From positions 310,001 to 374,000 of the forward strand of contig JASFXZ010000092.1 in NCBI GenBank assembly GCA_032209605.1: a DNA stretch of 64,000 nt. The letters run 5' to 3'. The notes below the pieces were generated by a model. It was not told where the DNA came from, ran no database searches, and worked only from the letters and a program-made list of their open reading frames with translations. Position numbers and translations under genes: made by a program. Origin of the DNA: Mactromeris polynyma. Its lineage: Eukaryota; Mollusca; Bivalvia; Venerida; Mactridae. Shown in pieces: positions 34,501 through 63,532 of this stretch; the first letter of the stretch is position 1; each line of letters begins with the position of its first letter.

Positions 34501-37428
34501 TAGAGTTAACTTCATAACTATTGACCTTTTTCAGTACGTTACAGGAAAATTCATATTTTTTCTAGCCCGAAGTGTTTTGAACTAGGCACTGTAAATAATG
34601 AATCCTCAGCATCATGCATTTAAATGAAGACAGGATTTATTTTGGATGTTTTGGAAAGATGACCCATACCCTTCAAATTGGGAATTTTTGCACATTAAAC
34701 TGAGAAATCGGGGAAAAGGTATAGAAATTACAGCAAAATATTAGGAATAAAAGTAAAATAGAATTGATTAATTCATCAACAATTGCTATTTATATAAACT
34801 GCATGTGAGAGAAAAGCCTCTAAATGTTGGCTAAATTCAAACCTAAATCTTTTCTCCAGATTAATTCACAGGTACTTGAAACAAACTATTTTAATGTTCT
34901 ATATGGCCTATTTACCGTAGTATAATAAGTTTGTTTCAAGTACCTGTGAATTAATCTGGAGAAAAGATTTAGGTTTGAATTTGTGGAATAATTGGGATTG
35001 TTTTTATTCAAATTGGGAAAAATATATACTTTCTGGCATTGGAAATATAGCCGAATAACGGCTATAAAAATAATTGAAAAACCCTGGAAGGTGAATACAT
35101 TTTTCACCACTTTTGCAGTCAGTTATACGTAAACATCTGTCATCCATATATATAGGATTACCTGTGTCGTTTCTACGTCACCCACCAAATGAACCAATTT
35201 GCCTTCATTCTCTAAAGATATAACTCTTGTACTTGGCAATGGTACAACCAAGCTCAAACCTTCATCAAGAGATTTTGCAGTCTGAACAGCACGTCCCTAA
35301 AATAAACAAGAACTGAATTATCATAAAAGATGATAAAATTCAAACTCAAGACATACATTTTCCACCCACCTCAGGACGGCCGAAATACAAGGTGACCAAG
35401 ACCATAACGACTCAGTGCATGATGACTTGGATTTGGGCTATCTTGGCTTGTCTCACAATGAAAGGTCAATGCATTGAACCACACATTCTCTATTGGATAT
35501 TTCTTAATTTATGGTGATTGTGAAAAAAGCACTCATAATTCTTATCAAGTTAAATCCTTCAAATTTATCATAGTTTCTCAATGATTTAATGACAAACACA
35601 TCATTCAGCTTATTCTAGTAACCAACTAAAGTTAAGCTTCATTTGCATGTAACTAGAATTTTCCTGTCTATGGGAATTAGTCACTGCAATCACTTTGAAA
35701 AACAATAACAAACTTTGACAATTTGATAAAAGATTAAGAAGAAAAATGAGGTGTTTTTTTCTAATTCATTTCGACGATAACATCTTTTTTCTAATGCCAT
35801 GTAAAGGGCAGCTTTCAGAGACAAAATTCAAGTACTATTCAAGGACTTTCCAACTATTTTTTCAAGGACCAATCACCAATTCACAAGAGTTAACAAAAAT
35901 GGCAACAGGTTAATGGTTTCTTTAAAATTGGAAATTGAAATGAAAAGAAACTGTACTATACATGTAGTAAATATGGCACTCATGTATATAATGATACATG
36001 TGTTACCGAGACATACAAATTCAGTAAAAGACCTTACATATATATCAATATGTATTATTTTTTTAAACATATTTTCAAGGCAAATATGAACCCTGTTGTA
36101 CATTCTAAAATAACAAGCAATGTTGAAGACTTGTATCAATCTACAATGAATATAGATAAATCATTCTGTGATCCTTTCACAACTTATTCCATAAACTTTC
36201 AGATAAGTTTGATGGTTGCACAAGAGCAATGTAGCTCATATTACTTGTTGATACATGTGACATTGACGCTTTATTCAATTTCGGCCAGTCTGTATGGCTG
36301 ATTTTATTATCTGATGTTGCCATACTTCTAGAACTGTGATCGTCCAAATAATTAGACGCTTAGAACAGTGTTTTTTATATTTTGACAAGAAGCTGCAACA
36401 TCATAGAATGAGCAATACTGATAAGATTCAAATGAGAAATGCTAGAGCAGTGACAAGTTGTGGTACCTCCACGGGTCTTCTGAGCTGTGCCGGCAGGGAC
36501 TTGTCCCTGGTAGCGCCATACAAGCTGGAGAGGTCAATCTTCTAGACTCAATGGGGTATCACAGCTATCTTGCTACTTTTTCTCTCTTTTATATCTATGG
36601 CATATCCTTGACCGAGTCTATGTTCTATCTATTCTATCCTTCTCTTTGTATTTATTCTCCTCGTGCACCGTAATATAATGGTCAAATTTGACAGTATTAC
36701 ATATACTACAGATACAGAAGTAAAAAAAATCAAATGCTTTCCTTATTAAATGTCCAAGTATTTGGTATAATGTGATTTTGAATCAAGTTTTTCTTCTTCC
36801 ATCACACAATACGCCTGGACAAGACCTATCTTAGGTAATTTCTAAAATTAAACTTGATCGATATGGCTGGTTATCGTCCTTGTCCAAGATATTATACCCA
36901 TACACATTCTGACCAAATTCTGTAAATGCTTCTAAAGTTATTGATCGGACAACTTACTGGACGCCACCGCAGCATATTACGTCCTGTTTCGGGCGTATAA
37001 ATATGCATGACAACTGTTTTATTATTGTAACAACTTGACTATAAACAAAGTTATCTAATGAGACAAACACAAGTGTGTTGTTGTACTTTTATTTAAACCA
37101 AGAAGTGAAGAACATGAAAGAAAGTAGTATCTATATACCAACAGAATGAACATGCTCAATGGTACAACAGAAATCTATAGTCTGTATCGAATAAGTATTA
37201 ACAAATAATACAACAATAATTCAAGTAATACATTTGTATATATGTTATATACACTATATAATTATTATAAAATATAACTTTACACACCTCGTTCCAAAAC
37301 AATACTCCGGAAGCCACTAACAGAATCACAAGTCCCACCAATATTCCACAGAGACTGCTGCCAACTCTTTCCAGGAAACCAGGATTCCTTTCATAACTTA
37401 CTCTCGTTCTTCCGTCCCCCATGGCCAT
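22518..37428 (-). CDS. TMEM43: TMEM43 (LUMA) transmembrane protein, complete eleven-exon gene
   Basis: Inner nuclear membrane/ER protein of the TMEM43 family, linked in vertebrates to nuclear-envelope organisation. Exons (right to left): 37288-37428, 35162-35296, 33921-34015, 33357-33409, 32343-32412, 31311-31381, 30695-30819, 29885-29956, 28855-28956, 27647-27764, 22518-22729. All are GT-AG and phase-consistent, 1194 nt, 397 aa, against 400 in human. Features: NPGFLERVGSSLCGILVGL and first membrane span at about 28-46; LDEGLSLVV; NEGKLVHLVG; VEMYQWIEH; long lumenal region with GMVYHSKDPIHPE; RFEYAGISG; then LLTWGLRLGGWLLMFIGF and three C-terminal spans (about 306-327, 338-361, 366-382) with VDWVPLVRDL and GWIYYRPL. 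The start is the first ATG in MAMGDG; a second ATG two codons later is possible. Intron 10 (4.9 kb) holds a large minisatellite. Confidence 0.96.
23060..23330. repeat. Dispersed repeat in TMEM43 intron 10, inverted copy at 30850-31078
   Basis: Contains aactgataagcccttatagg, accaagagactttgcatgtg and ttgcctatcaatatggccga. The reverse complement of 30850-31078 has the same blocks in the same order, so two inverted copies lie about 7.5 kb apart within one gene. Confidence 0.75.
23337..24305. repeat. 76-bp direct repeats flanking an 0.82-kb block
   Basis: The sequence beginning acatctatgttacgattaat at 23337-23412 recurs at 24229-24305 with very few differences (both contain ctgacttctttcatagatat and ccatatgtttcggtgtaaga). 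The block between them contains S1 SINE copy 3 and the segment shared with 14851-15095. The arrangement looks like a composite insertion bounded by a long direct duplication. Confidence 0.8.
23759..23995 (-). mobile_element. tRNA-derived SINE, family S1, copy 3
   Basis: The head on the minus strand begins gtctcctttgctcgagtggt and has box B aaggttcgaatcctgg; the tail on + includes tcctttaacgccaggcacca. Homology to copy 1 continues beyond the SINE. Confidence 0.8.
24504..24765 (+). mobile_element. tRNA-derived SINE, family S2, at the head of the 74-bp array
   Basis: The + strand reads aggcctcaatagccaagtgg (box A) and, about 50 bases on, cacgtttgaatcccacctgg (box B-like), again with a class II-like spacing. 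The body (gacccctgggggtctttcaa, ataatgctccataaaggcac) leads directly into the first unit of the minisatellite. Confidence 0.65.
24766..27389. repeat. 71-74 bp minisatellite, 36 units, TMEM43 intron 10
   Basis: The unit is cataaaggcacccggggtct, tcctccgccctaacagctgg, agacaacactacatgactct, ggctggttatgtaa (74 bp). Variants lack the 'ct' in gactctggctgg (72 bp) or have cccgggtc in place of cccggggtc (71 or 73 bp); early units have ccaggtc or cccagggtc. Units are otherwise almost identical. A seven-unit block (five 74-bp, one 72-bp, one 71-bp; 513 bp) occurs twice in succession from 25922 to about 26947. Each unit carries an E-box CAGCTG, and most carry a CCCGGG. Confidence 0.97.
27415..27620. mobile_element. 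MITE, family B, reference copy, TMEM43 intron 10
   Basis: 206 bp, cagtgggacctcgttcattc at the left and aaataaacgaggtctgactg at the right, TA on both sides. An internal 34-bp tandem duplication (tgagaccgtgtattcagata with aaaggttgtc / gaaggttgtc) makes this copy longer than its relatives. It abuts the end of the minisatellite and lies 26 bp from exon 10. Confidence 0.85.
28018..28345. repeat. 31-bp tandem array, about ten degenerate copies, TMEM43 intron 9
   Basis: Units of the form cctcccataattataattgg followed by caggacaaaac. Length varies from 29 to 35 bp. The array is the inverted counterpart of the G-rich array at 28495-28740. Confidence 0.85.
28495..28740. repeat. G-rich degenerate array in inverse orientation, TMEM43 intron 9
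   Basis: Recurring aggggttttgtccag, the reverse complement of the ggacaaaacccct core of the array at 28018-28345, here without the AT-rich spacer. It contains several runs of four or more G including G11 at 28545-28555, so quadruplex formation is plausible on the + strand. Confidence 0.7.
28978..29401. mobile_element. Family B MITE with a nested insertion, TMEM43 intron 8
   Basis: The outer element starts cagtgggacctcatttattc and ends cgaatgaatgaggtccaaca + g, with TA flanks. Between about 29050 and 29300 it is interrupted by a second, partly palindromic element (aatctcccgaagcatttcag on the left, gagatgctttgagagatcgg on the right), which explains its 424-bp length. Confidence 0.7.
29627..29714. 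mobile_element. MITE, family A, short form, TMEM43 intron 8
   Basis: 88 bp between TA dinucleotides, caataacacttcaataataa to ttaaaagttttactg. Contains cccttgggacccttgaaaac, shared with the copy at 31718. Confidence 0.75.
30850..31078. repeat. Inverted partner of the repeat at 23060-23330 (TMEM43 intron 6)
   Basis: The minus strand reads aactgataagcctttatagg, accaagagaatttgcatgtg and ttgcctatcaacatggccga, in register with 23060-23330. Confidence 0.75.
31468..31558. mobile_element. MITE, family A, short form, TMEM43 intron 5
   Basis: 91 bp, cagtaaaacctgacttaaag to tattattgaggttttactg. Internally deleted relative to the 162-178 bp forms. Confidence 0.85.
31718..31894. mobile_element. MITE, family A, long form, TMEM43 intron 5
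   Basis: 177 bp, cagtaaacctcaataataag to tatagtgagggtttactg, TA on both sides, in the opposite orientation to 9219 and 14171. It is only 160 bp from the short copy at 31468, so the two could pair in the nascent transcript. Confidence 0.85.
32960..33046 (-). mobile_element. tRNA-derived SINE head, TMEM43 intron 4
   Basis: The minus strand reads ctcacctgagttagctcagt, ggttagagtgttgg (box A region) and ggtccgggtttgatgccagg (box B region). The tRNA-like layout is clear, but the acceptor stem is not matched, so this is a SINE and not a tRNA gene. Confidence 0.6.
33091..33323. mobile_element. TIR element with cagggctctagaaa ends, TMEM43 intron 4
   Basis: 233 bp with left end cagggctctagaaattatct and right end tggttttctagagccctg. 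The interior repeats gtcctggac and acttgtccctgactaagtc in relation to the right half. The same end occurs alone at 19451-19465. It lies 33 bp beyond the exon 4 donor. The ends resemble hAT-type elements; no target duplication is obvious. Confidence 0.7.
34205..34425. repeat. 29-bp tandem array, about 7.5 copies, TMEM43 intron 2
   Basis: Unit catgtttgtggtgaccctac followed by ccaccctac; the last two copies carry substitutions (ctagccacc, ctactaacc), the rest are near-identical. Confidence 0.92.
34833..34982. repeat. Perfect 55-bp inverted repeat with 40-nt loop, TMEM43 intron 2
   Basis: The left arm 34833-34887 begins aaattcaaacctaaatcttt, and its exact reverse complement occupies 34928-34982, ending ttaggtttgaattt. 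I compared the arms base by base and found no mismatch. The spacer is 34888-34927. In the TMEM43 pre-mRNA this would form a long hairpin 180 nt after exon 2. Confidence 0.95.
36440..36560. other. GC-richer island in TMEM43 intron 1, unidentified
   Basis: Contains gtggtacctccacgggtctt and ctgtgccggcagggacttgt, with local inverted similarity (gggacttgtccc). It stands out from the AT-rich intron. It may be a repeat fragment; no exon with splice sites in frame was found. Confidence 0.25.
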
Positions 37429-37925
37429 GACGACTGGATTTTCACAGGCGCTAATCAATTAAGAAAGACAAAATTCCGTATCCGAATTCAGATCAACTTT
37501 GGACAACTCAGTGTTTATTTCAATTCACTATATTGTCATTGATAAAAATGATCAAGGATGAATTGAAAATTATTGCACGTAATAAACGACACAATACTGA
37601 TTGTCACAATTTAATGGGAAACCGCTAAATACGTAATGATAAAACTTCTACTTTCAATTTCGAAATCACCGGAACTGAACGTCATCACTTGTAGAAGGCC
37701 GAGTGTAAGACGCGGAACCCTCAATAACTCGATGAGAAAATTACGAAACCCACACAATCCTCAATAACTTTCTTATTTGTGCATATATTTTGATGAATAT
37801 AGTCTTATATTAAAGATAACGAGATACACTTTCCATTTTGATAAAATAAAGCATGTACACATGTTCAAATATCGACATGAACTGTTTTTCAGTCTTAAAT
37901 TATAACTTTCTTTTCTTCGCATGTA

Positions 37926-41497: not shown

Positions 41498-44400
41498 TTT
41501 TGGCTGGAACAGTGAAGTGTTGGCTGGAACAGCGAAGTGTTGGCTGTTAAAGTGAAGTGTTGACTGTTACAGTGAAGTGTTGGCTGGAACAGTGAAGTGT
41601 TGGCTGTTACAGTGAAGTGTTGGATAGTTGAGTAGAGTGTTGGCTGGTACAGTGAAGTGTTGGCTGGCATAATGAAGTGTTGGCTGGAACAGTGAAGTGT
41701 TGGCTGGAACAGCGAAGTGTTGGCTGTTAAAGTGAAGTGTTGGGTAGTACAGTAGAGTGTTGGCTGGTACAGTGAAGTGTTGGATGGAACAGCGAAGTGT
41801 TGGCTGGAACAGCGAAGTGTTGGCTGTTAAAGTGAAGTGTTGGATAGTACAGTGAAGTGTTGGCTGTTAAAGTGAAGTGTTGGATAGTACAGTGAAGTGT
41901 TGGCTAGAACAGTGAAGTGTTGGCTGGAACAGCGAAGTGTTGGCTGTTAAATTGAAGTGTTGGATAGTACAGTGAAGTCATGGCTGGAACAGTGAAGTGT
42001 TGGCTGTTAAAGTGAAGTGTTGGCTGATACAATGAAGTGTTGGCTGGTACAATGAAGTGTTGGCTGTTACAGTGAAGTGTTGGCTGGTACAATGAAGTGT
42101 TGGCTGTTACAGTGAAGTGTTGGCTGTTAAAGTGAAGTGTTGGCTAGAACTGTGAAGTGTTGGATGGATAGTTCAGTGCTGTGTTGGCTGGTACAGTGAA
42201 GTGTTGGCTGGTACAGTGAAGTGTTGAATGGTACAGTGAAGTGTTGGCTGGAACAGCGAAGTGTTGGCTGGTACAGTGAAGTGTTGACTGGTACAGTGAA
42301 GTGTTGGCTGTTAAAGTGAAGTGTTGGCTGTTAAAGTGAAGTGTTGACGGGTACAGTGAAGTGTTGGCTGTTAAAGTGAAGTGTGGGCTGTTAAAGTGAA
42401 GTGTTGGCTGTTACAGTGAAGTGTTGGCTGGTACAGTGAAGTTTTGGTAAGAACAGTGAAGTGTTGGCTAGTACAGTGAAGTGTTTGCTAGAACAGTGAA
42501 GTGTTGGCTGTTACAATGGAGTGTTGGCTAGAACAGTGAAGTGTTCGCTGGATCAGTGAAGTGTTGGCTGGCATAGTGTATTGTTGACTGGAACAGTGCA
42601 GTGTTGACTGGCATAGTGAAGTGTTGGCTAGAACAGTGAAGTGTTCGCTGGATGAGTGAAGTGTTGGCTGGAACAGTGAAGTGTTGGCTGGAACAGTGCA
42701 GTGTTGACTGGCATAGTGAAGTGTTGACTGGAACAGTGAAGTGTTGACTAGCATAGTGAACTGTTGGCTGGAACATTGCAGTGTTGACTGGCATAGTGAA
42801 GTGTTGGCTGGAACAGTGCAGTGTTGGCTGGCATAGTGAAGTGTTGGCTGGAACAGTGCAGTGTTGGCTGGCATAGTGAATTGTTGGCTGGAACAGTGCA
42901 GTGTTGGCTGGAACAGTGAAGTGTTGGCTGGCATAGTGAAGTGTTGACTGGAACAGTGAAGTGTTGGCTGGCATAGTGAAGTGTTGGCTGGAACAGTGCA
43001 GTGTTGGCTGGAACAGTGAAGTGTTGGCTGGCATAGTGTATTGTTGACTGGAACAGTGAAGTGTTGGCTGGCATAGTGTATTGTTGACTGGAACAGTGAA
43101 GTGTTGGCTGGCATAGTGTATTGTTGACTGGAACAGTGAAGTGTTGGCTGGAACAGTGCAGTGTTGGCTGGAACAGTGAAGTGTTGGCTGGAACAGTGAA
43201 GTGTTAGCTGGCATAGTGAAGTGTTGGCTGGCATAGTGTATTGTTGGCTGGAACAGTGAAGTGTTGGCTGGCATAGTGTATTGTTGGCTGGAACAGTGAA
43301 GTGTTGGCTGGCATAGTGAAGTGTTGGCTGGCATAGTGTATTGTTGACTGGAACAGTGAAGTGTTGGCTGGAACAGTGAAGTGTTGGCTGGCATAGTGAA
43401 GTGTTGGCTGGCATAGTGTATTGTTGACTGGAAGAGTAAAGTGTTGGCCGGAACAGTAAAGTGTTGGCTGGCATAGTGAAGTGTTGGCCGGAACAGTGAA
43501 GTGTTGGCTGGCATAGTGAAGTGTTGGCTGGCATAGTGAAGTGTTGGCTGGCATAGTGTATTGTTGACTGGAACAGTGAAGTGTTGGCTGGAACAGTGAA
43601 GTGTTGGCTGGAACATTGAAGTGTTGGCTGGCATAGTGTATTGTTGACTGGAACAGTGAAGTGTTGGCTGGAACAGTGAAGTGTTGGCTGGAACATTGAA
43701 GTGTTGGCTGGCATAGTGTATTGTTGACTGGAACAGTGAAGTATTGGCTGGAACAGTGAAGTGTTGGCTGGCATAGTGTATTGTTGACTGGAACAGTGAA
43801 GTGTTGGCTGGAACAGTGAAGTGTTGACTGGAACAGTGTATTGTTGAATGGAACAGTGAAGTGTTGGCTGGCATAATGAAGTGTTGGCTGGAACAGTGAA
43901 GTGTTGGCTGGAACAGTGAAGTGTTGGCTCGCATAATGAAGTGTTGGCTGGAACAGTGAAGTGTTGGCTGGAACAGTGAAGTGTTGGCTGGCATAGTGTA
44001 TTGTTGAATGGAACAGTGAAGTGTTGGCTGGAACAGGGAAGTGTTGACTGGAACAGTGAAGTGTTGGCTGGCATAGTGTATTGTTGATTGGAACAGTGAA
44101 GTGTTGGCTGGAACAGTGAAGTGTTGGCTGGCATAGTTAAGTGTTGACTGGAACAGTGAAGTGTTGGCTGGAACAGTGAAGTGTTGGCTGGCATAGTGTA
44201 TTGTTGACTGGAACAGTGAAGTGTTGGCTGGCATATTGAAGTGTTGGCTGGCATAGTGTATTGTTGGCTGGAACAGTGAAGTGTTGACTGGCATAGTGAA
44301 GTGTTGGCTGGCATAGTGTATTGTTGACTGGAACAGTGAAGTGTTGGCTGGCATAATGAAGTGTTAGCTAGAACAGTGAAGTGTTGGCTGGCATAGTGTA

Positions 44401-47400
44401 TTGTTGAATGGAACAGTGAAGTGTTGGCTGGCATAATGAAGTGTTGGCTGGAACAGTGAAGTGTTGGCTGGAACAGTGAAGTGTTGGCTGGCATAGTGAA
44501 GTGTTGGCTGGCATAGTGTATTGTTGACTGGAACAGTGAAGTGTTGGCTGGCATAGTGAAGTGTTGGCTGGAACAGTGAAGTGTTGGCTGGCATAGTGTA
44601 TTGTTGACTGGAACAGTGAAGTGTTGGCTGGCATAGTGAAGTGTTGGCTGGAACAGTGAAGTGTTGGCTGACATAGTGTATTGTTGACTGGAACAGTGAA
44701 GTGTTGGCTGGCATAGTGAAGTGTTGGCTGGAACAGTGAAGTGTTGGCTGGCATAGTGAAGTGTTGGCTGGAACAGTGAAGTGTTGGCTGGAACAGTGAA
44801 GTGTTGGCTGGCATAGTGTATTGTTGACTGGAACAGTGAAGTGTTGGCTGGCATAGTGAAGTGTTGGCTGGAACAGTGAAGTGTTGGATGGCATAGTGTA
44901 TTGTTGACTGGAACAGTGAAGTGTTGGCTGGCATAGTGAAGTGTTGGCTGGAACAGTGAATTGTTGGCTGGCATAGTGTATTGTTGACTGGAACAGTGAA
45001 GTGTTGGCTGGCATAGTGAAGTGTTGGCTGGAACAGTGAAGTGTTGGCTGGCATAGTGTATTGTTGACTGGAACAGTGAAGTGTTGGCTGGCATAGTGAA
45101 GTGTTGGCTGGAACAGTGAAGTGTTGGCTGGCATAGTGTATTGTTGACTTGAACAGTGAAGTGTTGGCTGGCATAGTGAAGTGTTGGCTGGAACAGTGAA
45201 GTGTTGGCTGGCATAGTGTATTGTTGACTGGAACAGTGAAGTGTTGGCTGGCATAGTGTATTGTTGACTGGAACAGTGAAGTGTTGGCTGGCATAATGAA
45301 GTGTTGGCTAGAACAGTGAAGTGTTGGCTGGAACAGTGAAGTGTTGGCTGGAACAGTGAAGTGTTGGCTGGCATATTGAAGTGTTGGCTGGCATAGTGTA
45401 TTGTTGACTGGAACAGTGAAGTGTTGGCTGGCATAGTGAAGTGTTGGCTGGAACAGTGAAGTGTTGGCTGGCATAGTGTATTGTTGACTGGAACAGTGAA
45501 GTGTTGGCTGGCATAATGAAGTGTTGGCTAGAACAGTGAAGTGTTGGTTGGCATAGTGTATTGTTGAATGGAACAGTGAAGTGTTGGCTGGCATAATGAA
45601 GTGTTGGCTGGAACAGTGAAGTGTTGGCTGGCATAGTGAAGTGTTGGCTGGCATAGTGTATTGTTGACTGGAACAGTGAAGTGTTGGCTGGCATAGTGTA
45701 TTGTTGAATGAAACAGTGAAGTGTTGGCTGGCATAATGAAGTGTTGGCTGGAACAGTGAATTGTTGGCTGGAACAGTGAAGTGTTGGCTGGAACAGTGAA
45801 GTGTTGGCTGGCATATTGAAGTGTTGGCTGACATAGTGTATTGTTGACTGGAACAGTGAAGTGTTGGCTGGCATATTGAAGTGTTGGCTGGCATAGTGTA
45901 TTGTTGACTGGAACAGTGAAGTGTTGGCTGGCATAGTGAAGTGTTGGCTGACATAGTGTATTGTTGACTGGAACAGTGAAGTGTTGGCTGGCATAGTGAA
46001 GTGTTGGCTGACATAGTGTATTGTTGACTGGAACAGTGAAGTGTTGGCTGGCATAGTGAAGTGTTGGCTGGCATAGTGAAGTGTTGGCTGGAACAGTGAA
46101 GTGTTGGCTGGCATAGTGTATTGTTGACTGGAACAGTGAAGTGTTGGCTGGCATAATGAAGTGTTGGCTAGAACAGTGAAGTGTTGGTTGGCATAGTGTA
46201 TTGTTGAATGGAACAGTGAAGTGTTGGCTGGCATAATGAAGTGTTGGCTGGAACAGTGAAGTGTTGGCTGGCATAGTGAAGTGTTGGCTGGCATAGTGTA
46301 TTGTTGACTTGAACAGTGAAGTGTTGGCTGGCATAGTGTATTGTTGAATGGAACATTGATGTGTTGGCTGGCATAATGAAGTGTTGGCTGGAACAGTGAA
46401 TTGTTGGCTGGAACAGTGAAGTGTTGGCTGGAACAGTGAAGTGTTGGCTGGCATATTGAAGTGTTGGCTGGCATAGTGTATTGTTGACTGGAACAGTGAA
46501 GTGTTGGCTGGCATATTGAAGTGTTGGCTGGCATAGTGTATTGTTGACTGGAACAGTGAAGTGTTGGCTGGCATAGTGAAGTGTTGGCTGGAACAGTGAA
46601 GTGTTGGCTGGCATAGTGTATTGTTGACTGGAACAGTGAAGTGTTGGCTGGCATAATGAAGTGTTGGCTAGAACAGTGAAGTGTTGGTTGGCATAGTATA
46701 TTGTTGAATGGAACAGTGAAGTGTTGGCTGGCATAATGAAGTGTTGGCTGGAACAGTGAATTGTTGGCTGGCATAGTGAAGTGTTGGCTGGCATAGTGTA
46801 TTGTTGACTGGAACAGTGAAGTGTTGGCTGGCATAGTGTATTGTTGAATGGAACAGTGAAGTGTTGGCTGGCATAATGAAGTGTTGGCTGGAACAGTGAA
46901 TTGTTGGCTGGAACAGTGAAGTGTTGGCTGGAACAGTGAAGTGTTGGCTGGCATATTGAAGTGTTGGCTGAAATAGTGTATTGTTGACTGGAACAGTGAA
47001 GTGTTGGCTGGCATATTGAAGTGTTGGCTGGCATAGTGTATTGTTGACTGGAACAGTGAAGTGTTGGCTGGCATAGTGAAGTGTTGGCTGACATAGTGTA
47101 TTGTTGACTGGAACAGTGAAGTGTTGGCTGGCATAGTGAAGTGTTGGCTGACATAGTGTATTGTTGACTGGAACAGTGAAGTGTTGGCTGGCATAGTGAA
47201 GTGTTGGCTGGCATAGTGAAGTGTTGGCTGGAACAGTGAAGTGTTGGCTGGCATAGTGTATTGTTGACTGGAAAAGTGAAGTGTTGGCTGGCTTGGTGAA
47301 GTGTAGTGAAGTGTTGTCTGGCATAGTGTATTGTTGACTGGAACAGTGAAGTGTTGGCTGGCATAGTGTATTGTTGATTGGAACAGTGAAATGTTGGCTG

Positions 47401-48640
47401 GCATAGTATATTGTTGACTGGAACAGTGAAGTGTTGGCTGGTATAGTGTATTGTTGATTGGAACAGTGAAATGTTGGCTGGCATAGTGTATTGTTGACTG
47501 GAACAGTGAAATGTTGGCTGGCATAGTGTATTGTTGATTGGAACAGTGAAGTGTTGGCTGGCATAGTGAAGTGTTGGCTGGAACAGTGAAGTGTTGGCTG
47601 GAACAGTGAAGTGTTGGCTGGAACAGTGCAGTGTTGGCTGGAACAGTGAAGTGTTGGTTGGAACAGTGAAGTGTTGGCTGGAACAGTGAAGTGTTGGCTG
47701 GAACAGTGCAGTGTTGGCTGGAACAGTGAAGTGTTGGCTGGCATAGTGTATTGTTGACTGGAACAGTGAAGTGTTGGCTGGCATAGTGTATTGTTGACTG
47801 GAACAGTGAAGTGTTGACTGGCATAGTGTATTGTTGACTGGAACAGTGAAGTGTTGGCTGGCATAGTGAAGTGTTGGCTGGCATAGTGTACTGTTGACTG
47901 GAACAGTGAAGTGTTGGCTGGCATAGTGTAGTGTTGGCTGGCAAAGTGAAGTGTTGACTGGCATAGTGAAGTGTTGGCTGGAACAGTGAAGTGTTGGCTA
48001 GTAGAGTGAATAGTTGGTTGGTATAGGGAAGTGCCGACAGGTACAGTGAAATATTGGCTTGTGCAGTGACGAGTTGGCTAGTACAGTGATGAAGTGTTGA
48101 CTGGTACAGTGAAGTGTTTACTTGTATAGTGAATTGTTGGCAGGTACATTGAAGCGTTGGCAGTTGGATAGTACAGTGAAGTGTTGACTGGTACAGTGAA
48201 ATGTTGGATTGTACAGTGAAGTGTTGTCTGGTACAGTGAAATGTTGACTGGTACAGTGAAGTGTTGACTGGTACAGTGAGGCATTGACTGGTACATTGAA
48301 GTGTTGGCTAGTACATTGAACTGTTGACTGGTACAGTGAATCATTGGCTAGTACAGTGAATCATTGGCTAGTACAGTGAATCATTGGCTAGTACAGTGAT
48401 GAAGTGTTGACTGGTACAGTGAAATGTTGGCTAGTACAGTGAAGTGTTGACTGGTACAGTGGAATGTTGGATAGTACAGTGAAGTGTTGACTGGTACAGT
48501 GAATCATTGGCTAGTACATTGAAGTGTTGGCTAGTACAGTGGTGCAGTGTTGGTTGGTACAGTAAAATGGTTACTGGTATAGTCAAGTGCTGACTGGTAC
48601 AGTGAAGTGTTGGCTGGTATAGTGATGTGTTGACTGGTAA
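41498..48640. repeat. 7.1-kb satellite array, 20-bp unit, roughly 355 copies
   Basis: Core unit gtgaagtgttggctggaaca, with main variants ending ggctggcata and the gtgtattgttgactggaaca type. The period is exactly 20 bp over most of the array. The centre (about 42500-47950) is homogeneous and built from a few variants in recurring order; the flanks (41500-42500, 48000-48640) are degenerate, with gtacag, ttaaag and similar endings. Higher-order copies are visible: the marker ggctagaacagtgaagtgtt followed by ggttggcatag occurs at about 45527, 46167 and 46667. The minus strand has no stop codons in any frame across kilobases, so several overlapping 'ORFs' of up to 908 codons appear, all reading the same MPANTSLFQPTLHYASQHF-type peptide. 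These are a by-product of the repeat. Confidence 0.97.
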
Positions 48641-53038: not shown

Positions 53039-56000
53039 CTAGTCAAGGCTACTTAACCCTGAGTCTGAATTACAACGTGTAGCAACCAAGGAATCATCGC
53101 TGGAGTCTGAAGCACCGGATGTAGTTCTAAATTGTGATCTATGACCGGGTTTAAAGTCAAGTGCTTGCCGTTCAAGTGACTCCATCTTTGAAATGTCAAT
53201 ATAATCGCTTGTTGACTGATTTGCCGACTCTTTATTTTTTTCTGCAGAGCAATTTTGTTGATTGTTTAGATGAAGAACAGCATCAACCGTAACATAATCT
53301 TGGTGAACAGTATTATTTTGGTCTGGTGATTGTTCATACCTTGTAGAGGCAGTTAAAGTATCATTGACGTCTGAATCTTCATCATCTTCCGATTCAACAA
53401 ATGCTGTATTGTCATATTTCAATGTATTGATTTGTGCATTGTTGAGTATTTCCATTTTGCTAATATCAACATATGGTGTTGTGGTTGTAAGAGGTGTACA
53501 GTTATTTTGAGTGATATCATTGTTGTTTTCATGAGAATTTGATGTCCCATGATGTGAGGTCTCTGTTTCACTTGTAGGAGGCATGGTGACCGACACTGGG
53601 GTAGAAATAGTTCCATTACATTGGTTTGGTACTTGTTCTAAATTAGGGCTGTCAGGTGTAATATCACCACCATACTGTACAGGTGATTTGATATAGGAAT
53701 CAGATACAAGGTTCAAGTGTGTAGTATCACCATCATACTGTATAGGTGACTTGATATAGGAATCAGATACAAGGTCCGAGGGTGTAATATCACCACCATA
53801 CTGTATAGGTGACTTGATATAGGAATCAGATACAAGGTCTGAGCGTGTATTATCACCATCATACTGTATAGGTGATTTGATATAGGAATCAGATACAAGG
53901 TCCGAGGGTGTAATATCACCACCATACTGTATAGGTGACTTGATATAGGAATCAGATACACGGTCAGAGGGTGTAATATCACCACCATACTGTATAGGTG
54001 ACTTGATATAGGAATCAGATACACGGTCAGGGGGTGTAATATCACCACCATACTGTATAGGTGACTTGATATAGGAATCAGATACACGGTCCGAGCGTGT
54101 AATATCACCACCATACTGTATAGGTGACTTGATATAGGAATCAGATACACGGTCAGAGGGTGTAATATCACCACCATACTGTATAGGTGACTTGATATAG
54201 GAATCAGATACACGGTCAGGGGGTGTAATATCACCACCATACTGTATAGGTGACTTGATATAGGAATCAGATACAAGGACCGAGGGTGTAATATCACCAC
54301 CATACTGTATGGGTGACTTGATATAGGAATCAGATACACGGTCAGAGGGTGTAATATTACCATCATACTGTATAGGTGACTTGATATAGGAATCAGATAC
54401 AAGGTCCGAGGGTGTAATATCACCATCATACTGTATAGGTGACTTGATATAGGAATCAGATACAAGGTCCGAGGGTGTAATATCACCATCATACTGTATA
54501 GGTGACTTGATATAGGAATCAGATACAAGGTCCGAGGGTGTAATATCACCTCCATACTGTATAGGTGACTTGATGTAGGAATCAGATACACGGTCAGAGG
54601 GTGTAATATCACCACCATACTGTACAGGTGACTTGATATAGGAATCAGATACACGGTCAGAGGGTGTAATATCACCACCATACTGTATAGGTGAAATGAC
54701 ATAATTTGAAATTTTGGGAGAATTTAGTTCATCACCACCGTATTCTACTGGTGATTTGACATAAGAATCTATTTGGCCCAAGTTTGAAATGTTAGCACTA
54801 GACTGTACTATTTGGTCGGAATGTGAACTGACACCCCCATATGGTACTGGTGATTTGACATAAGAATTCATTTCATCTGAACATGAACTGTCACCCTCAT
54901 ACCGTATTGGGGATTTGACATAAGATTGTATGTGTTTCGAATGAGGAAGATCCCCCTCACATTGGTCATGTGACTCGACATAAAAATCTCCCATTTGATT
55001 TTGGTGTCGACTGTCATTCACATCTGGAGCCTTGACATAAGAATCTGCCGTTTGGTCTGAATCTTGACTTCCACTCTGACACTCTGGTTCTGCATGAAGA
55101 CTGTTATCATCAATTGTTCCTGACAATCTGAGATATTCAGGAAAATCTGGGCTTGAATCATAAGCCTCTGGTTTTGGAATGGATGTGAGTTTTATAAACT
55201 TCTCTTCCTTTTTGGCTGGACAATTGCTGTCTAATTTTGTGCAACTGTGACCAGTAACTTTTGATTGATTACGCTCATCTTTGTTGCTACATGAATCATT
55301 CTGATTCACATTGCCTGTGATGATAGCTTTATTGTAGTCCTGTGGGATTGCTGTATCTTTGTTTGGTGTTTCACTGCTTCTGGTTTTATGATTCAGTTCA
55401 ACGTAACCAGGTGTTGGACAATCATGAACAAATCCTACGATCTGTTCATTATGTGTAGTCAAAGTATTGTCACGCTCTGCATTTGAGAGGTTCATCCTGT
55501 CATCATCAAACTTGTCCGATTTGTTTGTTGTATAACCAACGCAATACCCATCTGGAAGGCATATAAACTCAGGTTTCTCATTTGTCTCTGGTGTTATAGG
55601 TACACCACTGTCCTTGCTGTCTTGTCTATCAAACTGAAAACAAGTTAAGAATATCACTATAATTTTAATGTGTACATATTAGGAAAGTGACCCGCAACCC
55701 GCCATTCGGCTGCCTTGTTTTTTTTAGTTAATCACACAATTTGAGCATCTTGGTAGATGATTATTTAATGAACATTCAGGTGAAATTATATCGAAATTGG
55801 GCCAGTAGTTTATGACATGAAGATTTTTGATGTTTCAACTATAATACGTATATATATGTTTTTTGACAAATCCAAGTAACTTGAACAATCCTGGTAGAGG
55901 GTCACCAAAGGACCATCTGTGTGAAGTTATATCAACTTGGTCTGGAGATTTTAAAAAGACGATTTTTGAAGTTTCCTCTATATACATTTGTACATACATG

Positions 56001-59000
56001 AAAATGGGCTCTCTTCCCTGGCGAGCATGTTTGTAACGAATCCAAACCACTTGTAAGTTTAAGTGTCACCTTGGTAAACTTTCGCTTAAACTCTGTGAAA
56101 TTCCTCGAAGTGGTTTCAGAAGTGATATTTTGAAAAGCAAGACACGAAGTTGGCCATGTTGTTTTTTGTTGGATCAGGAAGCCTTTTTGTATTTTGTAGA
56201 GTGTCACCACATGAAGCTTCCAGTAAAAGTTAATGAATTTGGACTTTCAGAGGAGGCGGTTTTTAAATTGTTGAGGGACATATTTACGGACAGAGGAAGA
56301 CCAATCAATAAAGTTCAGTTATTTCAAACTTTCACATAAGACCACAAAATTCTGGACCGGACATGAAAAACCATATTCACTATAGTTTACATTGGAAATG
56401 AACAAAATTAAATCCTGCACCGTGACGTTGACCTTTAATATGTGGGCATTGCAAAGAAACTCTGGGCTGGACACTTCTTTCGACATGCACGATAAACCAT
56501 GACTTTGGACCCTTTAGATAGGGGCACCACTGTTACATGGGACATATCATCTTATTATGATGATCGTTTTTGGATTGTTATTTTAAAATCGCACAATAGA
56601 CAACACAATCCTTGGCTAGACACGCTATTGACATGGACGGATGATCACATGAACAGGCGTAACGTTATATTCCCTTCCAACAATTCACGGAGAGCGCATA
56701 AAAAGAGGCTTTTGACACACAAGATTTGTGACATCTAGACAAGACACTATGTGGGCGAGACACAATAATTAAAATAGTCATTATGATATTGAAAGTTAAA
56801 TGATAAAGGTAACAACGTAACTCTGCATAAATACAATTAAAGGGGACAATGTATCGGAACGTGTAATATTATGCACTGAAAAACAACTTACCGATTTTTG
56901 AGACAAGTCAATTTGATCATATGATTGATCCAGCTCGGTCTGAAAATAAAACAATAATTTAATAATTGAAGCACTGAATTAAAATTTGGTCTAGCAACAA
57001 AACAATCACAAATAATATCATAATTTTCACAGATCTAGATTATATGCAAAAGATACTCTAAGGCTTAGATTAAAAATGACTTTTTGGTTTGGAAAATTGG
57101 GAGGGTAGGAAAGTAGTATTTTTTTGGTTTTTAATGAAGAGGATTGATAGTCTTATATGCAATGAACATAAGCCAAAATTGGGGGCATTGACACATCAAC
57201 ACGCAAATCAACGAAGGCCATACATATAGGCACTTCGCCATCCTACATAACATTTCTGTGGACAAATGTCAAAAAAATATCTCTCAGATCATGGCAATGT
57301 TTCTGTATAGGTTTGTCTGGGTCAATCTTTCTTTTTTATTTTAGGCCAAGATAAAGTCATTATCAAAGCAGCATTTTGTAATAAACACGTCTAAGCTTCA
57401 ATTAGGCAATTAGATTAAGCAGTAATGGTCCTACATAATTGAATGGTATGAATTCGACATTTTGGCAAGATCAAATAACACCATAAAGCATTCATTATCA
57501 ATGATTTCTTAATAATTCCAAGATATGTATTTATGGTTTTATAGTAATGCATAAAGCCTCGATTAGCTATTATTTCAACTTACAAATATATATAATGCAC
57601 TCGCAAACAAAACACAAACTGTTCCCATCCAGAAACTAATGTTTTAAAACAGTCCCCATCAGGACCCAATTAGTGCTCTGAGAATTCCGGTTTCAAGAGA
57701 CTTTTCAATTAAATGACTTAGTAGGCAGTAACTAATCATTAAAAGCAATTGAACATTACATACATAACAGCAGACACACTGTGTATAATCCAGCACGAAG
57801 AAACAAGCAGCCTTATACTGACTTTGCTCTCAGTAACTAAATTATTTACACCAGAATGCGAAATAAAATTAAATCAATAACCTAATGCAAAATCAACGGA
57901 AAAATGTAGTTAATAATTAGACATAATCCTAAATACTGGTGATAGGGAAAGGGAATTTCAAATAAAGACGAATAGAAATAAAATTATAAATACATGTATT
58001 GAGAAAACTAAACAAAATTACAACTGTACCAAATGAGGATTAAGTTGTGTTATAAAACAGCACTATAGAGATAAAATTGTCCTTGTTAATGGCAAATGAC
58101 GTCATATTTATGTTCATCAAATGACGTCATATTTATGTTCATCAAATGACGTCATATTTATGTTCATCAAATGACGTCATATTTATGTTCATCAAATGAC
58201 GTAATAAAGAAAGAAGCTTACTGAAATGTAACTGATATATATGCCTCAATGAGAAGTACGTAATGCATAGAGAAAAGGATGGTAGATTAATGAAAACTCA
58301 AAATGGTCAACCCAAACTAATACATGTACTTCACCATACAATTGACAGTACAAAATGTAACAAGGACAAACATCAGCGTAAACCCAAAACATTTTAGACA
58401 CCACAGCACCAAACAATCCACAAAGGGGCTTGGTAATTACTCAAGTCAAAGAATTACATCTTATAATTAACAAACAAAATTTAAGCAAGACCAAATAAAC
58501 AAACTTAAGTTCATAAATTTTAGTATTACAACAAACAATGCACTTGAAAAACACACCGTCTTAAAATGGTAATAATTTAAAGGAAATAAGTAAAACAGGG
58601 TTGTACTATTGGATACAGTGCAATTACTTATCAATGGAAGAAAAGTGATCCAAGAGTATATTGCCAGACTCTTCATCGGATGGTCATGGATTTTATTCCA
58701 GACATGGGTGAAAATCAGAATCCTCACAATTCCACAATTCAGCTTGAATTAAAATAACAACACAAGGTACCATCATCCTGAGTGACAAATGTTGAGTACA
58801 ATACATGAAACTTGTTTTACAACTGATGGAAATGAACAGAAATTCCAACTAAACAAACAAGTATTTTGTTATTTGTAACACAATACAGCCAAACAACTTT
58901 ATGTACAGACATTGTTAAATCAAACAAAAGGCAGTTGAAACTACTAATCAATGCTAGAAGAAACACACCGACAGTGAGTTATTTAAATGACAAGAGATGT

Positions 59001-62000
59001 TTGTCATTAACATTACGCCTTCCAGTGACCATGATCTTTGACCAGTGTCCCCACTATCAATAGGGTTCCTTTGCTACCCAAGATGAATGTGTGGACCAAG
59101 TTTGAGGATGATAGGTCAAGGGGTTCTTGAGTTATTGATCGGAAATGAAAAAGTTACGGGCGGACGGACGGACCGAACGACGGATGGACATACCGACAGA
59201 CCAACATGTGCAAACCAATATGCCCTCTCTTCTTTGAAGGGGGGCATAAAAATAGCAAACTGATGTAGTTGTACGAATTTTAATTGAGACAGTTCATTGA
59301 ATCTGTAATGAAGAATGCTCGGAAGGACTGACCAATGAAGAATCGCTTTACGTCACATTGTTTAAGTTACCAAAACTTTCTGCCTTCAGTTGAAATGAAT
59401 TGATACATGCTTGCAATTTCATTGGTCAGGAACTGACTCATTTTAAACATTTCACTGTCAATTCTACAAAGAAACACAACGTTGAACTACATACTTATCA
59501 TGGCTGTCAACGCTGGACTCAAGAGTACACTTGATGAGGGTCTGGCAAAAAACTAATACAACAACGTAATTTTGTAAAACTGAGCAACAAATCATATGTG
59601 CCAAATGCTTGATGTGTTAATGGCAAACATGTTAACAGTAAAAAAAAATCAAAGAGGAAAACATTGAAATACACTTACTGAGAATAGAACTGTGGTATGT
59701 AACGATAATAGTATATTTATAATATAACATACAGAGTAGAGTATTAGTAATACCCATGTAATATTTTCAATTATTCACTAGTAACTCACATTTGTGATGT
59801 CAAAACAAAACAAAGATGCGCTCAAATTATTTTGGTATACACTGTAGTTAAATATTTTGTATGACATTTTAGTTCATTGACAATTATTATCTCGTTAATT
59901 TGAATATGCCTGTGACATAATCATTTGAACCTGTACCTTGTGGATGAAAGATAAATAATAAATTGTCTGAACTATTTTTGTTGCGTAAGCTTTTGTTTAC
60001 CGAAGACCGATTTACACATGCCATACTCTGCTTGCTTGCATATATGAGGTCAATCTAATGGTTTGACACAAATTAGCTGTTTCTGCATAAATTGCATGAA
60101 TAGAATCTTACATTGCTGTTCATTTTTATTGAATTAATTATACTCATAAAGCCTCATTTCATCATATTTAGAAAACCGGTTTAATAAATTCAATAAAATA
60201 ACGACCAATCCTGCAAGATATTCTAGAATCACTTAATGGCAACTTTTACATTGATAGTTTGTTGAAGGTCAATCATTATATCAGATCGTATTTTACATAT
60301 TGACTGGTTACCAAAAGCATGTGATTTTATTGTACACAACATATTAATTTCCGTATAAGAATAACAGCAAAGATATACATGGCATACCTAAATGGTAATT
60401 GAAATACTTTAGATTGTAACATAAGTTATGCTACAGTTAAGTCCACAATCTACACTTTGTTTGATTCCTACACTATATATACTGTAAAAGTCTTTATTTT
60501 CACGGGCACTTTATTTTGCGTATTTCCATTTTTTGTTTCACAAGTTTTTATTTTCACAAGTTCCATGCTAACATAGTGATGAATACATAATTATTTAAGC
60601 AAGAATTTGAATTTGAGTATTAATGCAAAAATAAAACATCACGAAAAAAGGACTTCCATAGTAATTTATAAGATAATGTAGGGCATTGAATTCTTATAAA
60701 CTTTTTTCGCACCTGTATTATGGAAGCTTACAAAATAATTTATCAAGGTAATCAAGAAATAATATACTGAAATATTTGAATGCACACCAAATCATACACA
60801 AGGGGTATTTCATATATAATGCAAATAGGCCAGGCTACGCCCCTGTAATGCACCTGTGCCTAAAATGAACTATGAAACGTCTTTTGAAAACTGGATTAAA
60901 AATTTGAAACTTTGCATACAGCACAAAGGGGAACAATATCACAAACATGTTAAGTGAAAGAAGCAAAACTTTCATAGAAATTTTAAGATTTACGACACCA
61001 ATTGCAGTATAAAGGAAACACCGCTGGTACAACCCAAAATATTCTATGTAACTGTCCTAATATTGTTAATGTTGCCTCAATATATCACTACTATAGATAT
61101 AATCAATATTTATACATAATATTACAACTTCACAACATGTTAAATAGGCAAGACAACAAATGTCTCCATAGGACACAGTTGCATCCACTTTACTAAATCA
61201 AGGGGCATAACTGTGCTCTTACTAAATAAATCCAACAGAAAAATCCACATGTACAATTTAATGCAATCATTAATATTGCTACACAGTTTCATTTCTCTAC
61301 ATCAAACACTTTCTGTGATATGGGCGACATAACATTAAGTCAAATGCATGATTAGTCTAAGTACCCTAACACTTGCAAGTGGGGATAAAGGTACAAACAA
61401 TGTGCCTACTTCTACTGGTACATGATGAATAAATGTCCCACTGATGAAATGGACATACCATTTTGCCCTCAGCAGAACACGAAGTATACTTACAGTAGGA
61501 TTAGGATCCACATGTGTGACTGGGAGTCTTACAGCTCCAGCTTGGTCTTTCCAAAGTTTAAATTTTGCTTTGCTTTTCCTACAATACAGTTCTTTTCGTT
61601 AAAACAAAACACTAGTTTCTTGTTATTAATGATTGTATAAATTGGATACAGAACAACCCCTTTGCCAGTCATTGGATACAGAACAACCCCTTTGCCAGTC
61701 ATTGGATACAGAACAACCCCTTTGCCAGTCATTGGATACAGAACAACTCCTTTGCCAGTCATTATTTTGTAGAAGGTGATGTAAAAAGCCACTACTTTCG
61801 TTTCAGCAACGCTTCAACCTTAATCTATCAGCAAGACTTTTGTGAAATGAAGTGCACTTTAAGTGGTCGGAATATAAGAATCTTTCACTGGTTTCTGGTA
61901 GGGAAAGACATATCCAGCTTGATGGCCACTGTTATGGCGGGAACGAGGCACTGTGAGAAGGAAACTGGTACACAGGCTTTGTAACAGAGAAACTGGTTCT

Positions 62001-63532
62001 CAACTATGGTGATTCGTCAAGCAATGTTGGTAATGAATCAGCAACAATATTTTAGGCAAAACCCTAGATACAATAGATATCAATTAATGATGAAGTTACT
62101 GACAAATAAATGCTAAGTAAATACAAACAAACTAAACAAACCTGAGACAGCAGAAGAGTCCAACACCAGCCATAAAAACTACAACCAAACATGCCATTAC
62201 AATACCAACCACTTCTCCTGACTTCAGAGCTGTAAATACACAACTTAGTGAAAGCTTGATACAAAACTGTTACAACTACCAAGTAACAATTGTTTTGCAC
62301 CAAGCCCTCGACATTACAGATAACTAACACTATATTGTAATCATATCGCAATGTTTTACCATAACACAATCCTTATTTCTATATCCAGGAATGAAAAGAA
62401 AGCATTGAACATGCAATGCTGTAACCTGGTATTTCATTGGAAAATGTGCCATATTATGAGTATGTGTGAATGCTGGAACACACTAAAAAGAGATGTTTGT
62501 AAAGCATTATGCCCCCTGTGACCTTGACCTTTGACCCCATGACCCCAAAATCAACAGGGTTCCTCTGCTACCCAAGATGAATGTGTGGACCACGTTTAAG
62601 GATGATAGGTCAAGGGGTTCTTGAGTTATTAATCGGATACGATGGACCGACGGACGGACATACCCACTGACCGACATGTGCAAAACAATATGCCCCCTCT
62701 TCGAAGGGGGGCATAAATATACGCTCCCTGGCAAACGTTAACAATGCGAAGTCACATAAAACAAAACTGAGGGTACACGAATAAGACTGAGAATTACATA
62801 CATGCATACCAATGGGTGAATGCATAGCAAACCTAATAGCATCTTTATTGTTATGCAGTTAGCGTAGTTTCACATTCACACATCTATTTACAGATTCTGA
62901 CATACTTTTATAAACAAGCACTATATAAAAATGTCCATGCAATGTTTTAAAAGAGGGCGGGTAATGTTGAACACTATGTCACTTACTGTATAAGTGGATG
63001 TTTTCACAGTCAAAACGTTGCAGTAAATATGAGACACTTTTTAGCATGTATACAGATATAAAATGATTCAAAAGCAGATGTAATCTACCAAGTTTACTTA
63101 AAATTAAACGTTCTAATTGATCACTTCAAGTGATCATATAGTATAGATAGTAATTTAGAAATGAAATCTGCTAAATCATGTTTACTAAAATTCCAACATA
63201 CCAGAATTGAGATTATTTAGAACTATAAAAATGTTCATTGGTGAATGCGGAAAATAAGGCTGGCTGATACAGTCAGACCTCATTTATTCAACAACCTTCT
63301 TTCCTTCTATCAATTTGCATACATTCCTACGTAGCAAACTTTACCACAAATCCAATATATTTATCTGCAGCACATATATAGGACGTACCTCTGTGTTCAG
63401 GCGTACCATGCACGATATCACTGTAAGGTCCGTAACAGCCGTCTTCATTGCCTGCCTTGACCTTTACAGAATACTTCTCCTCAAGGACATCAAGAACAGT
63501 TAAACCAGTTAAGTCTTCTGCGACTTCTTCAT
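53039..63532 (-). CDS. Type I transmembrane FnIII receptor with giant tyrosine-repeat tail (cytokine-receptor-like), 3' part
   Basis: Exons seen (right to left): 63389-63532, 62142-62229, 61494-61578, 56892-56939, 53039-55633; all GT-AG with matching phases. Exon 1 seen encodes the end of a fibronectin III domain (KYSVKVKAGNEDGCYGPYSD). The next encodes the transmembrane helix (VVGIVMACLVVVFMAGVGLF) then CCLRKSKAKFKLWKDQ, a basic stop-transfer. The third includes WKDQAGAVRLPVTHVDPNP, where the Pro-rich part loosely resembles a JAK-binding box 1. The last exon encodes 864 aa with over 50 tyrosines, a block of 21-residue repeats, then motifs PYVDISKM, DYVTVDAVL, DYIDISKM, ending DSGLSSLD. There is no kinase or phosphatase domain. 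Layout suggests a gp130/Domeless-type cytokine receptor; that class is inferred, not shown. Upstream exons lie off the window, and further small exons within the 4.6-kb intron are possible. AATAAA (minus) at 52942-52947 may end the transcript. Confidence 0.8.
53648..54709 (-). repeat. In-frame 63-bp coding minisatellite, about 17 tandem units
   Basis: Encodes SYIKSPIQYGGDITPSDRVS + D repeated, with variation mainly at a few positions: Gly/Asp after the second Tyr, Ser/Pro/Arg and Arg/Leu before VSD. Every unit keeps both tyrosines and the SP, and most keep TP. N-terminal to it are four or five degenerate relatives (SYVKAPDV, FYVESHDQ, SYVKSPIRYEGD, SYVKSPVPYGG, SYVKSPVEYGGD). The gradient from degenerate to homogeneous units indicates expansion of an older motif. 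All units are a multiple of three, with no frameshift or stop across more than 1 kb. Confidence 0.93.
55735..56190. repeat. Degenerate dispersed repeat units in the receptor intron
   Basis: Three loosely similar units begin near 55735, 55868 and 56037, each running aatc...acttg/attt...ggtagatg-like, gtgaaattat/gtgaagttat, then ...gaagatttttgatgttt or acgatttttgaagtttc. They resemble an abundant bivalve repeat, from memory. Short open frames within are treated as noise. Confidence 0.4.
58097..58204. promoter_or_regulatory. Tandem array of CRE palindromes, 25-bp spacing, receptor intron
   Basis: The unit aaatgacgtcatatttatgt + tcatc is repeated. Perfect TGACGTCA sites begin at 58097, 58122, 58147 and 58172, and a fifth, TGACGTAA, at 58197. 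TGACGTCA is the full CREB/ATF palindrome. Located in the large intron between the juxtamembrane exon and the 48-nt exon. A regulatory role is inference; the array may be only a microsatellite. Confidence 0.6.
59010..59248. mobile_element. Dispersed element ending ggggggcata, copy 1
   Basis: Shares ctacccaagatgaatgtgtg, ggatgataggtcaaggggtt, cttgagttattgatcgga and accaatatgccc with 62508-62715. The left end is less clear than in copy 2. Family features match an abundant bivalve repeat. Confidence 0.7.
61641..61760. repeat. 30-bp tandem array, four copies, receptor intron
   Basis: Unit attggatacagaacaacccc followed by tttgccagtc, four copies with one substitution in the last. It is 63 bp upstream (in gene sense) of the juxtamembrane exon's acceptor. 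The 10-residue repeat it could encode (MTGKGVVLYP) is not part of an exon. Confidence 0.92.
62508..62715. mobile_element. Dispersed element with tatgccccc/gggggcata ends, copy 2
   Basis: The left end tatgccccctgtgaccttga and right end cttcgaaggggggcata form a short inverted repeat. Inside the left end is tgaccttgacctttgacccc, a cluster of nuclear-receptor half-sites. In the intron between the FnIII exon and the TM exon. Confidence 0.75.
63270..63310. mobile_element. Family B MITE end fragment
   Basis: cagtcagacctcatttattc then aacaaccttc, preceded by TA. The rest of the element is not recognisable. Confidence 0.55.

Follow-up and report, generated by a model that had tools for sequence, protein, structure and literature searches.

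A predicted single-pass receptor gene

The window, i.e., the whole stretch of 64,000 nucleotides analysed here (G000:C292:310001-374000; assembly of 793 Mb in 299 contigs), carries on its minus strand part of a predicted receptor gene with one transmembrane segment, an FnIII stalk and a tail without a kinase domain. Five exons (63532-63389, 62229-62142, 61578-61494, 56939-56892 and 55633-53039), all with an AG acceptor and the first four with a GT donor, were predicted to join in phase at GT-AG sites into an open frame of 985 aa that ends in a stop codon. Their predicted order is an FnIII half, the transmembrane segment, a basic juxtamembrane stretch, a short acidic exon and the tail. The 985-aa chain matched no Pfam family at E <= 1, and the stalk is incomplete, at least one of its exons not having been found.

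The first exon of the chain (63389..63532, minus strand; AG acceptor, GT donor, in phase) encodes the second half of the membrane-proximal FnIII domain. A six-frame scan of the window found its F-G strand pattern once, and 200 mononucleotide shuffles gave one match. The first half of the domain lies outside the window (G000:C292:374582-374427) and was joined to it. The exon at 62142..62229 (minus strand) encodes the single transmembrane segment, VVGIVMACLVVVFMAGVGL (mean hydropathy of 2.79 over 19 residues), followed by K/R; its counterparts are 90% identical on contig C90 and 97% identical on contig C223. It is followed by the juxtamembrane cytoplasmic stretch KSKAKFKLWKDQAGAVRLPVTHVDPNPT (61494..61578, minus strand), which includes a Box1-like PXP, and by the short acidic stretch TELDQSYDQIDLSQKS (56892..56939, minus strand; GT-AG, in phase), to which a 15-aa stretch on C90 is 60% identical (E 0.007). 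The terminal exon (53039..55633, minus strand) encodes a tail of 864 aa, the length given in the initial annotation, and the stop codon, and C90 carries a tail exon that is likewise open and similarly laid out. This tail, which would be cytoplasmic by the usual type I topology, has 53 tyrosines: 34 in a tandem array, eight in five older units and 11 elsewhere. The placing of the array in a receptor tail is borne out by this chain, in which it stands in frame in the tail of a predicted single-pass receptor.

The openness of the frame alone proves nothing, because a second frame on the same strand (336 aa) is likewise open through the array. Judged from the sequence, evidence that the array exon is coding comes from the splice chain, the paralogues and those stretches of the tail that are not repetitive.

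In the introns of the gene, two copies of a dispersed repeat, ATGCCCCCCTTC...GGGCATATTG, were recognised by eye (62535-62740 and 59040-59250), and a stretch resembling this repeat is present on C223.

The ectodomain upstream of the window

Four in-phase exons further upstream on the same contig (G000:C292:388637-388517, 386506-386307, 385958-385816 and 385046-384887) encode a two-domain module, D1-D2. The predicted D1 (first two exons) contains five cysteines, with no cysteine pairing implied, and CVAENFVDHLNCSW. Its signature, C-V-x8-N-C-S-W (C-x10-C-x-W), is present once in a six-frame translation of 30 kb, and 200 shuffles gave 11 matches in total; in class I receptors D1, the distal FnIII domain, has two cysteine bridges and a pattern of the form C-x(9,10)-C-x-W. 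The list of class I cytokine receptor features used for comparison was that of PMC7444064. D2 matched Pfam fn3 at E 4.1e-4 (20.9 bits, under the curated cut-off of 25), and the membrane-proximal domain, with both of its exons joined, at E 1.3e-6 (29 bits, over the cut-off of 25); these chains were joined by hand, and their junctions deviate by a few residues from the splice model, the membrane-proximal chain having one Gly at the junction that this model does not contain. The half domain in the window (63389..63532) had no fn3 match when searched alone, and a fibronectin half-domain used as a control scored 8.5e-10. We name the membrane-proximal domain FnIII because its other exon was found and the joined domain lies over the fn3 cut-off. 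Between the D1-D2 module and the window, further exons resemble FnIII pieces by eye; the two of these that were tested gave no fn3 match.

A sequence search of the PDB returned no match for residues 1-358 of the chain, the FnIII half, the juxtamembrane part or D1. For the D1-D2 chain joined by hand there were 15 matches at E <= 10, led by neogenin (1.1e-4); the other matches were, by name, receptor phosphatases and FnIII designs or fusions, with no cytokine receptor among them.

At the place of the WSxWS motif this gene reads GGYWSDERS and the copies on C90 and C223 read WSDARS, i.e., only half of the motif. The Box1 region is DPNPT in this gene and NPNPT on C223, and PXP is missing on C90 (copy B). 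By its predicted features the receptor is class I cytokine-receptor-like, kinase-less and single-pass. The earlier comparison with cytokine receptors is supported by the D1 signature and the Pfam-positive FnIII domain; we do not file the receptor as a class I member, because WSxWS is degenerate and Box1 is not conserved. Coupling to a JAK is only tentatively inferred, for the same two reasons.

An 87-bp tandem repeat lies between the first two D1 exons found (G000:C292:387732-386806, minus strand; one frame open, 309 aa), and a similar array of the 87-bp type is present on C90 (C90:10357500-10356625; one frame open, 292 aa).

A 21-residue unit array in the tail

Tandem Repeats Finder reported one array in the tail (53655-54694; period 63, 16.5 copies, 94% matches, no indels, score 1709), and reading unit by unit extended it to 17 units of 21 aa (63 bp) at 53633..54703 on the minus strand, with the consensus YIKSPIQYGGDITPSD(R/L)VSDS. 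The array opens with a unit reading YVISPIQY and closes with one in which the usual linker is missing. It is preceded, at 54704..55039 (minus strand), by five older and diverged units, each about 20 aa long (starts 55039, 54982, 54922, 54862 and 54763), which have counterparts in the three other tail copies described below. When the array and the older units of this gene (copy A) are taken together, the first tyrosine (Y1) is present in 22/22 units and the second (Y2) in 20/22. Y2 has been lost from the older units 55039 and 54982, one of which has His for Y1 in the other three copies. The counts of the initial annotation agree with ours: about 17 in-frame units (17), preceded by four or five degenerate relatives (five), with about 34 tyrosines (34) and about 30 proline-directed sites (14 TP and 18 SP, 17 of the latter at the unit position and one in the last linker).

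An ITAM consists of two YxxL/I with tyrosines about 9-12 residues apart, whereas the unit tyrosines are spaced 7 and 14 apart and have no L/I at +3. A proline stands at +4 in YIKSP and YGGD is without one; to our knowledge, no well-known SH2 consensus corresponds to YIKS or YGGD.

Paralogous tail copies in the same genome

A search of the same genome, in which 48 candidates were scored, gave at least 35 matches, spread over three contigs. C90 carries copy B, apparently intact, with an 887-aa tail frame and its own FnIII, transmembrane, juxtamembrane and short exons, and C223 holds two tail copies, C and D. The repeat-number variation that had been proposed for alleles was found here among copies within one genome, with 17 units in A, 17 in B, 13 in C and 8 in D, the last two copies being broken. 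C and D have a common frame break just after the array, and the array of C is also interrupted by about 350 bp with an inverted repeat recognised by eye (G000:C223:33527552-33527140, minus strand), perhaps a small transposon insertion. One transmembrane exon was found in the 50 kb examined on C223, so copy D may be a lone tail exon.

The five older units of A have counterparts in B, C and D, each of which carries two more diverged units, one of them at the position of the first array unit of A. Synonymous differences between A and B amount to 8.5% of sites before the array and 6.6% after it, about the same as the synonymous divergence among units within array A or B.

In a large protein collection, the 985-aa chain had no homologue at E <= 1e-3 (7996 candidates sharing most words scored), and its residues 1-320 had none at E <= 1 (2164 candidates scored); these negatives carry little weight for conservation in other animals.

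Conservation and selection on the units

Across the 55 array units of the four copies, Y2 is kept in 55, GD in 54, SP in 53, Y1 in 52 and TP in 21. YVISPIQY of A belongs to this set, but the units that correspond to it in the other copies, YVMPPVHY (B, C) and NVMPPVHY (D), were left out; counting them in by eye gives Y2 in 58/58, Y1 in 54/58 and SP in 53/58 units. Among the diverged units of B, C and D, Y2 is missing in 3/7. TP occurs in 14 units of A and in only two, three and two units of B, C and D, respectively, and the usual TP per unit of the initial annotation does not hold beyond copy A; TP was ruled out as a conserved kinase code. The claim that variation avoids the tyrosines is true of the array of copy A, where it is weak evidence (the probability that 12 to 24 random non-synonymous events leave both tyrosines untouched is 0.33 to 0.10), but not of copy B, in which 3/17 units have Phe for Y1; these are the only Y1 losses in the 55 units.

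Linker residues 14, 17 and 18 have been replaced between genes: position 18 is Val in 16/17 units of A and Thr in 16/17 units of B, and position 14 is Pro in 14/17 units of A and Arg or His in 14/17 units of B. The linker residues are array-specific while the core was kept, which suggests that homogenisation took place separately in each array. Most differences between arrays lie in the linker: among A, B and D, pN/pS is 1.23-1.94 there, against 0.36-0.51 for the core. The corresponding ranges within each of the four arrays are 0.52-1.17 for the linker and 0.25-0.61 for the core, the last unit of each array being dropped from all these figures. A per-codon rank test on pN, core (11 codons) vs linker (10), was not significant in any of five pairings (one-sided p 0.066 to 0.167; without the last unit of each array and unit 33527552 of copy C). 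In the window, the 16 full units of array A have a pN/pS of 0.86, and selection tests on the young array were judged too weak to stand by themselves. Between A and B, the rest of the tail is under weak constraint (pN/pS 0.69 before and 0.85 after the array).

The older units gave a clearer result. For units 54922, 54862 and 54763 with the array consensus, a choice that favours the motif since 55039 and 54982 (without Y2) were left out, pN/pS is 0.30 in the core and 0.89 in the linker. The core value was reached by 33/4000 neutral simulations, and by 3/4000 when each simulation picked its best 11-codon window; the whole-unit value of 0.61 was reached by 221/4000, and both tyrosines were kept in all four sequences in 43/4000. 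The comparison of dN/dS between units that had been proposed as a check gave a pN/pS of 0.86 in the array and, in the older units, of 0.61 over the whole unit and 0.30 in the core, and the constraint on this core, as estimated from these four sequences, is the best evidence for selection.

Tyrosine motifs outside the units

Outside all units, 5/11 tyrosines have the form Y[VIL]x[VIL] (YVEL, YLRL, YVDI, YVTV and YIDI), whereas shuffles gave a mean of 0.2, with five such sites in 0/20000 and four in 1/20000. All are on the minus strand and they flank the array on both sides: YVELN (55391..55405; HVEM in copy B), YLRLS (55121..55135; deleted in copy B), YVDIS(KME) (53459..53473), YVTVD (53282..53296) and YIDIS(KME) (53189..53203), the last three kept in copy B. 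Such a shape is compatible with docking of the STAT5/SHP2 type as well as with YxxPhi sorting, and for this reason it does not name a partner. The enrichment is, by motif statistics, a mark of a tyrosine-signalling or sorting tail. It partly supports the docking platform of the initial annotation, the shape being one of docking or sorting; single units can lose Y1, as copy B shows.

At the C-terminus, DSGLSS (53048..53065, minus strand) has the form DSGxxS of a beta-TrCP site and is also present in the three other copies; the match is weak, DSGxxS arising by chance in 653/5000 shuffled tails. A beta-TrCP site of this form triggers the endocytosis of IFNAR1 and PrlR (PMC3036580).

Discussion

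Our preferred reading of the array is a multivalent phosphotyrosine docking strip in the tail of a class I cytokine-receptor-like protein, to which our analysis gives roughly even odds (probability of about 0.5). The tail would offer a few docking sites of the type pY-hydrophobic-x-hydrophobic, with a long and flexible double-tyrosine strip of Y-I-K-S-P-I-Q-Y-G-G-D units between them. Once an associated or nearby tyrosine kinase was activated, many units might become phosphorylated together and bind SH2 (or PTB) proteins through avidity, and output would grow with the number of units. The SP serine, at +3 of Y1, could allow a proline-directed kinase (e.g., ERK feedback) to alter binding unit by unit. 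Unequal exchange would keep the units alike within a gene and shift their number between genes, and the length of the tail in units may change quickly in evolution. Clearly less probable is the further proposal of an animal cytokine-receptor-like family in which the gain of the receptor is set by a minisatellite, i.e., in which strength is tuned by unit number through unequal exchange among paralogues, and probably alleles, with a phosphoserine switch in each unit.

The main and serious rival is that the array is a minisatellite in coding sequence, with little selection on it: a repeat whose length of 63 bp is divisible by three, which changes by unequal exchange and is tolerated as a spacer in a disordered tail, its tyrosines being kept by youth and homogenisation. 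Tandem arrays, including this one, cover 14370 of the 64000 bases of the window in 27 intervals (rows merged by hand), so this genome makes arrays readily. The pN/pS of 0.86 within the array, the 0.10-0.33 chance of missing both tyrosines, the weak constraint on the rest of the tail between A and B and the breakage of two of the four tail copies are also what such a spacer would give. It explains less well why the diverged older units keep their core beyond neutral simulations, why Y2 (55/55) and SP (53/55) survived the replacement of linker residues 14, 17 and 18 between genes, and why docking-type tyrosines stand on both sides of the array; we regard it as possible, but less probable than the docking strip. 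A platform of proline-directed serines, in which SP is the working site (a MAPK/CDK substrate read by Pin1 or WW/14-3-3-like proteins) and the tyrosines play a structural role, would suit the retention of SP and the replacement of Y1 by Phe. It is unlikely, however, since SP is less well preserved than Y2, TP remains in only 21/55 units though the same kinases would use it, and the motifs enriched outside the units are tyrosine-based.

The five Y[VIL]x[VIL] sites could also be read as YxxPhi adaptor sites for trafficking, with the array merely setting distance or slowing endocytosis; the units themselves, however, lack the hydrophobic residue of YxxPhi at +3 (YIKS, YGGD), and we give this explanation little credence. 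Least credible is the array as a beta-solenoid rod. AlphaFold2, run without an alignment, drew short strands through the array with a block pLDDT of about 50-73 and placed 539/864 tail residues below a pLDDT of 50. A frame of the window's satellite taken as non-coding and used as a control (45527-44370, 386 aa), however, was also drawn as strands throughout, with a mean pLDDT of 76.9, and the solenoid is therefore best read as an artefact and was rejected. AlphaFold2 is reported to draw such strands for perfect repeats of random sequence (PMC11795689). A Foldseek search of the PDB found 45 matches at E <= 10, of which the best had an E of 0.18 and none reached 0.001. The tail is probably disordered.

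The receptor resembles class I members such as gp130, IL6R and Domeless in the C-x10-C-x-W and further cysteines of D1, the combination of D2 and FnIII, the single transmembrane segment and the long, kinase-less, docking-shaped tail, and differs from them in its WSxWS (WSDERS/WSDARS) and in a Box1 PXP that is not kept among copies. Its cytoplasmic part of about 900 aa compares with 575 aa in IL-4R alpha, the longest in the set of PMC7444064, a paper whose main text uses 'tandem' once and 'repeat' not at all. IL6R-like receptors are reported to date back to Mollusca (PMC13203501). Among the open-licence papers found for tandem repeats with tyrosines in receptor tails, no title describes such a receptor. 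A close parallel to the array is the substrate domain of p130Cas, with up to 15 repeated YxxP (PMC10435235), a disordered strip of many repeated tyrosines that recruits SH2 adaptors (PMC10435235, PMC3983058). p130Cas is, however, a cytosolic adaptor, its pseudo-repeats have a motif spacing conserved in 11 placental mammals (PMC3983058), and its YxxP (Crk/Nck) places the proline at +3, whereas it is at +4 in YIKSP. CagA of H. pylori also bears tandem tyrosine segments in a disordered tail, and their copy number, which varies by recombination, sets the affinity for SHP2: a single copy of EPIYA-C binds with a KD of 24.1 uM, and eight copies bind with one of 40.1 nM (PMC5408210). CagA is a bacterial effector with few copies, a precedent for the working principle only, and we claim no sequence relation.

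That the number of docking sites sets SH2 affinity is known from CagA, and that repeated tyrosines cooperate is known from p130Cas. If the array is phosphorylated, its copies would form a set of naturally differing lengths (17 and 17 units where the copy is open, 13 and 8 where it is broken, possibly more in alleles) for studying how output scales with valency, and an example of signalling strength evolving through a change in repeat number.

Other features of the window

A minisatellite of 7.1 kb with periods of 20/40/60 bp occupies 41499-48637 and contains several open frames (up to 999 aa between stops), and 24764-27390 is an array of 36 copies of a 74-bp unit that are 97% alike. On the minus strand, 30674-31069 gave a weak match to TMEM43 (16.5 bits vs a cut-off of 23.3), and 37201-37458 looks TMEM43-like by eye, yet no match was found for it. 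The stretch at 8857-9171 (minus strand) is a phosphoserine aminotransferase exon, with 20 PDB matches (best 2.1e-26) and a match to Pfam Aminotran_5 over the cut-off.
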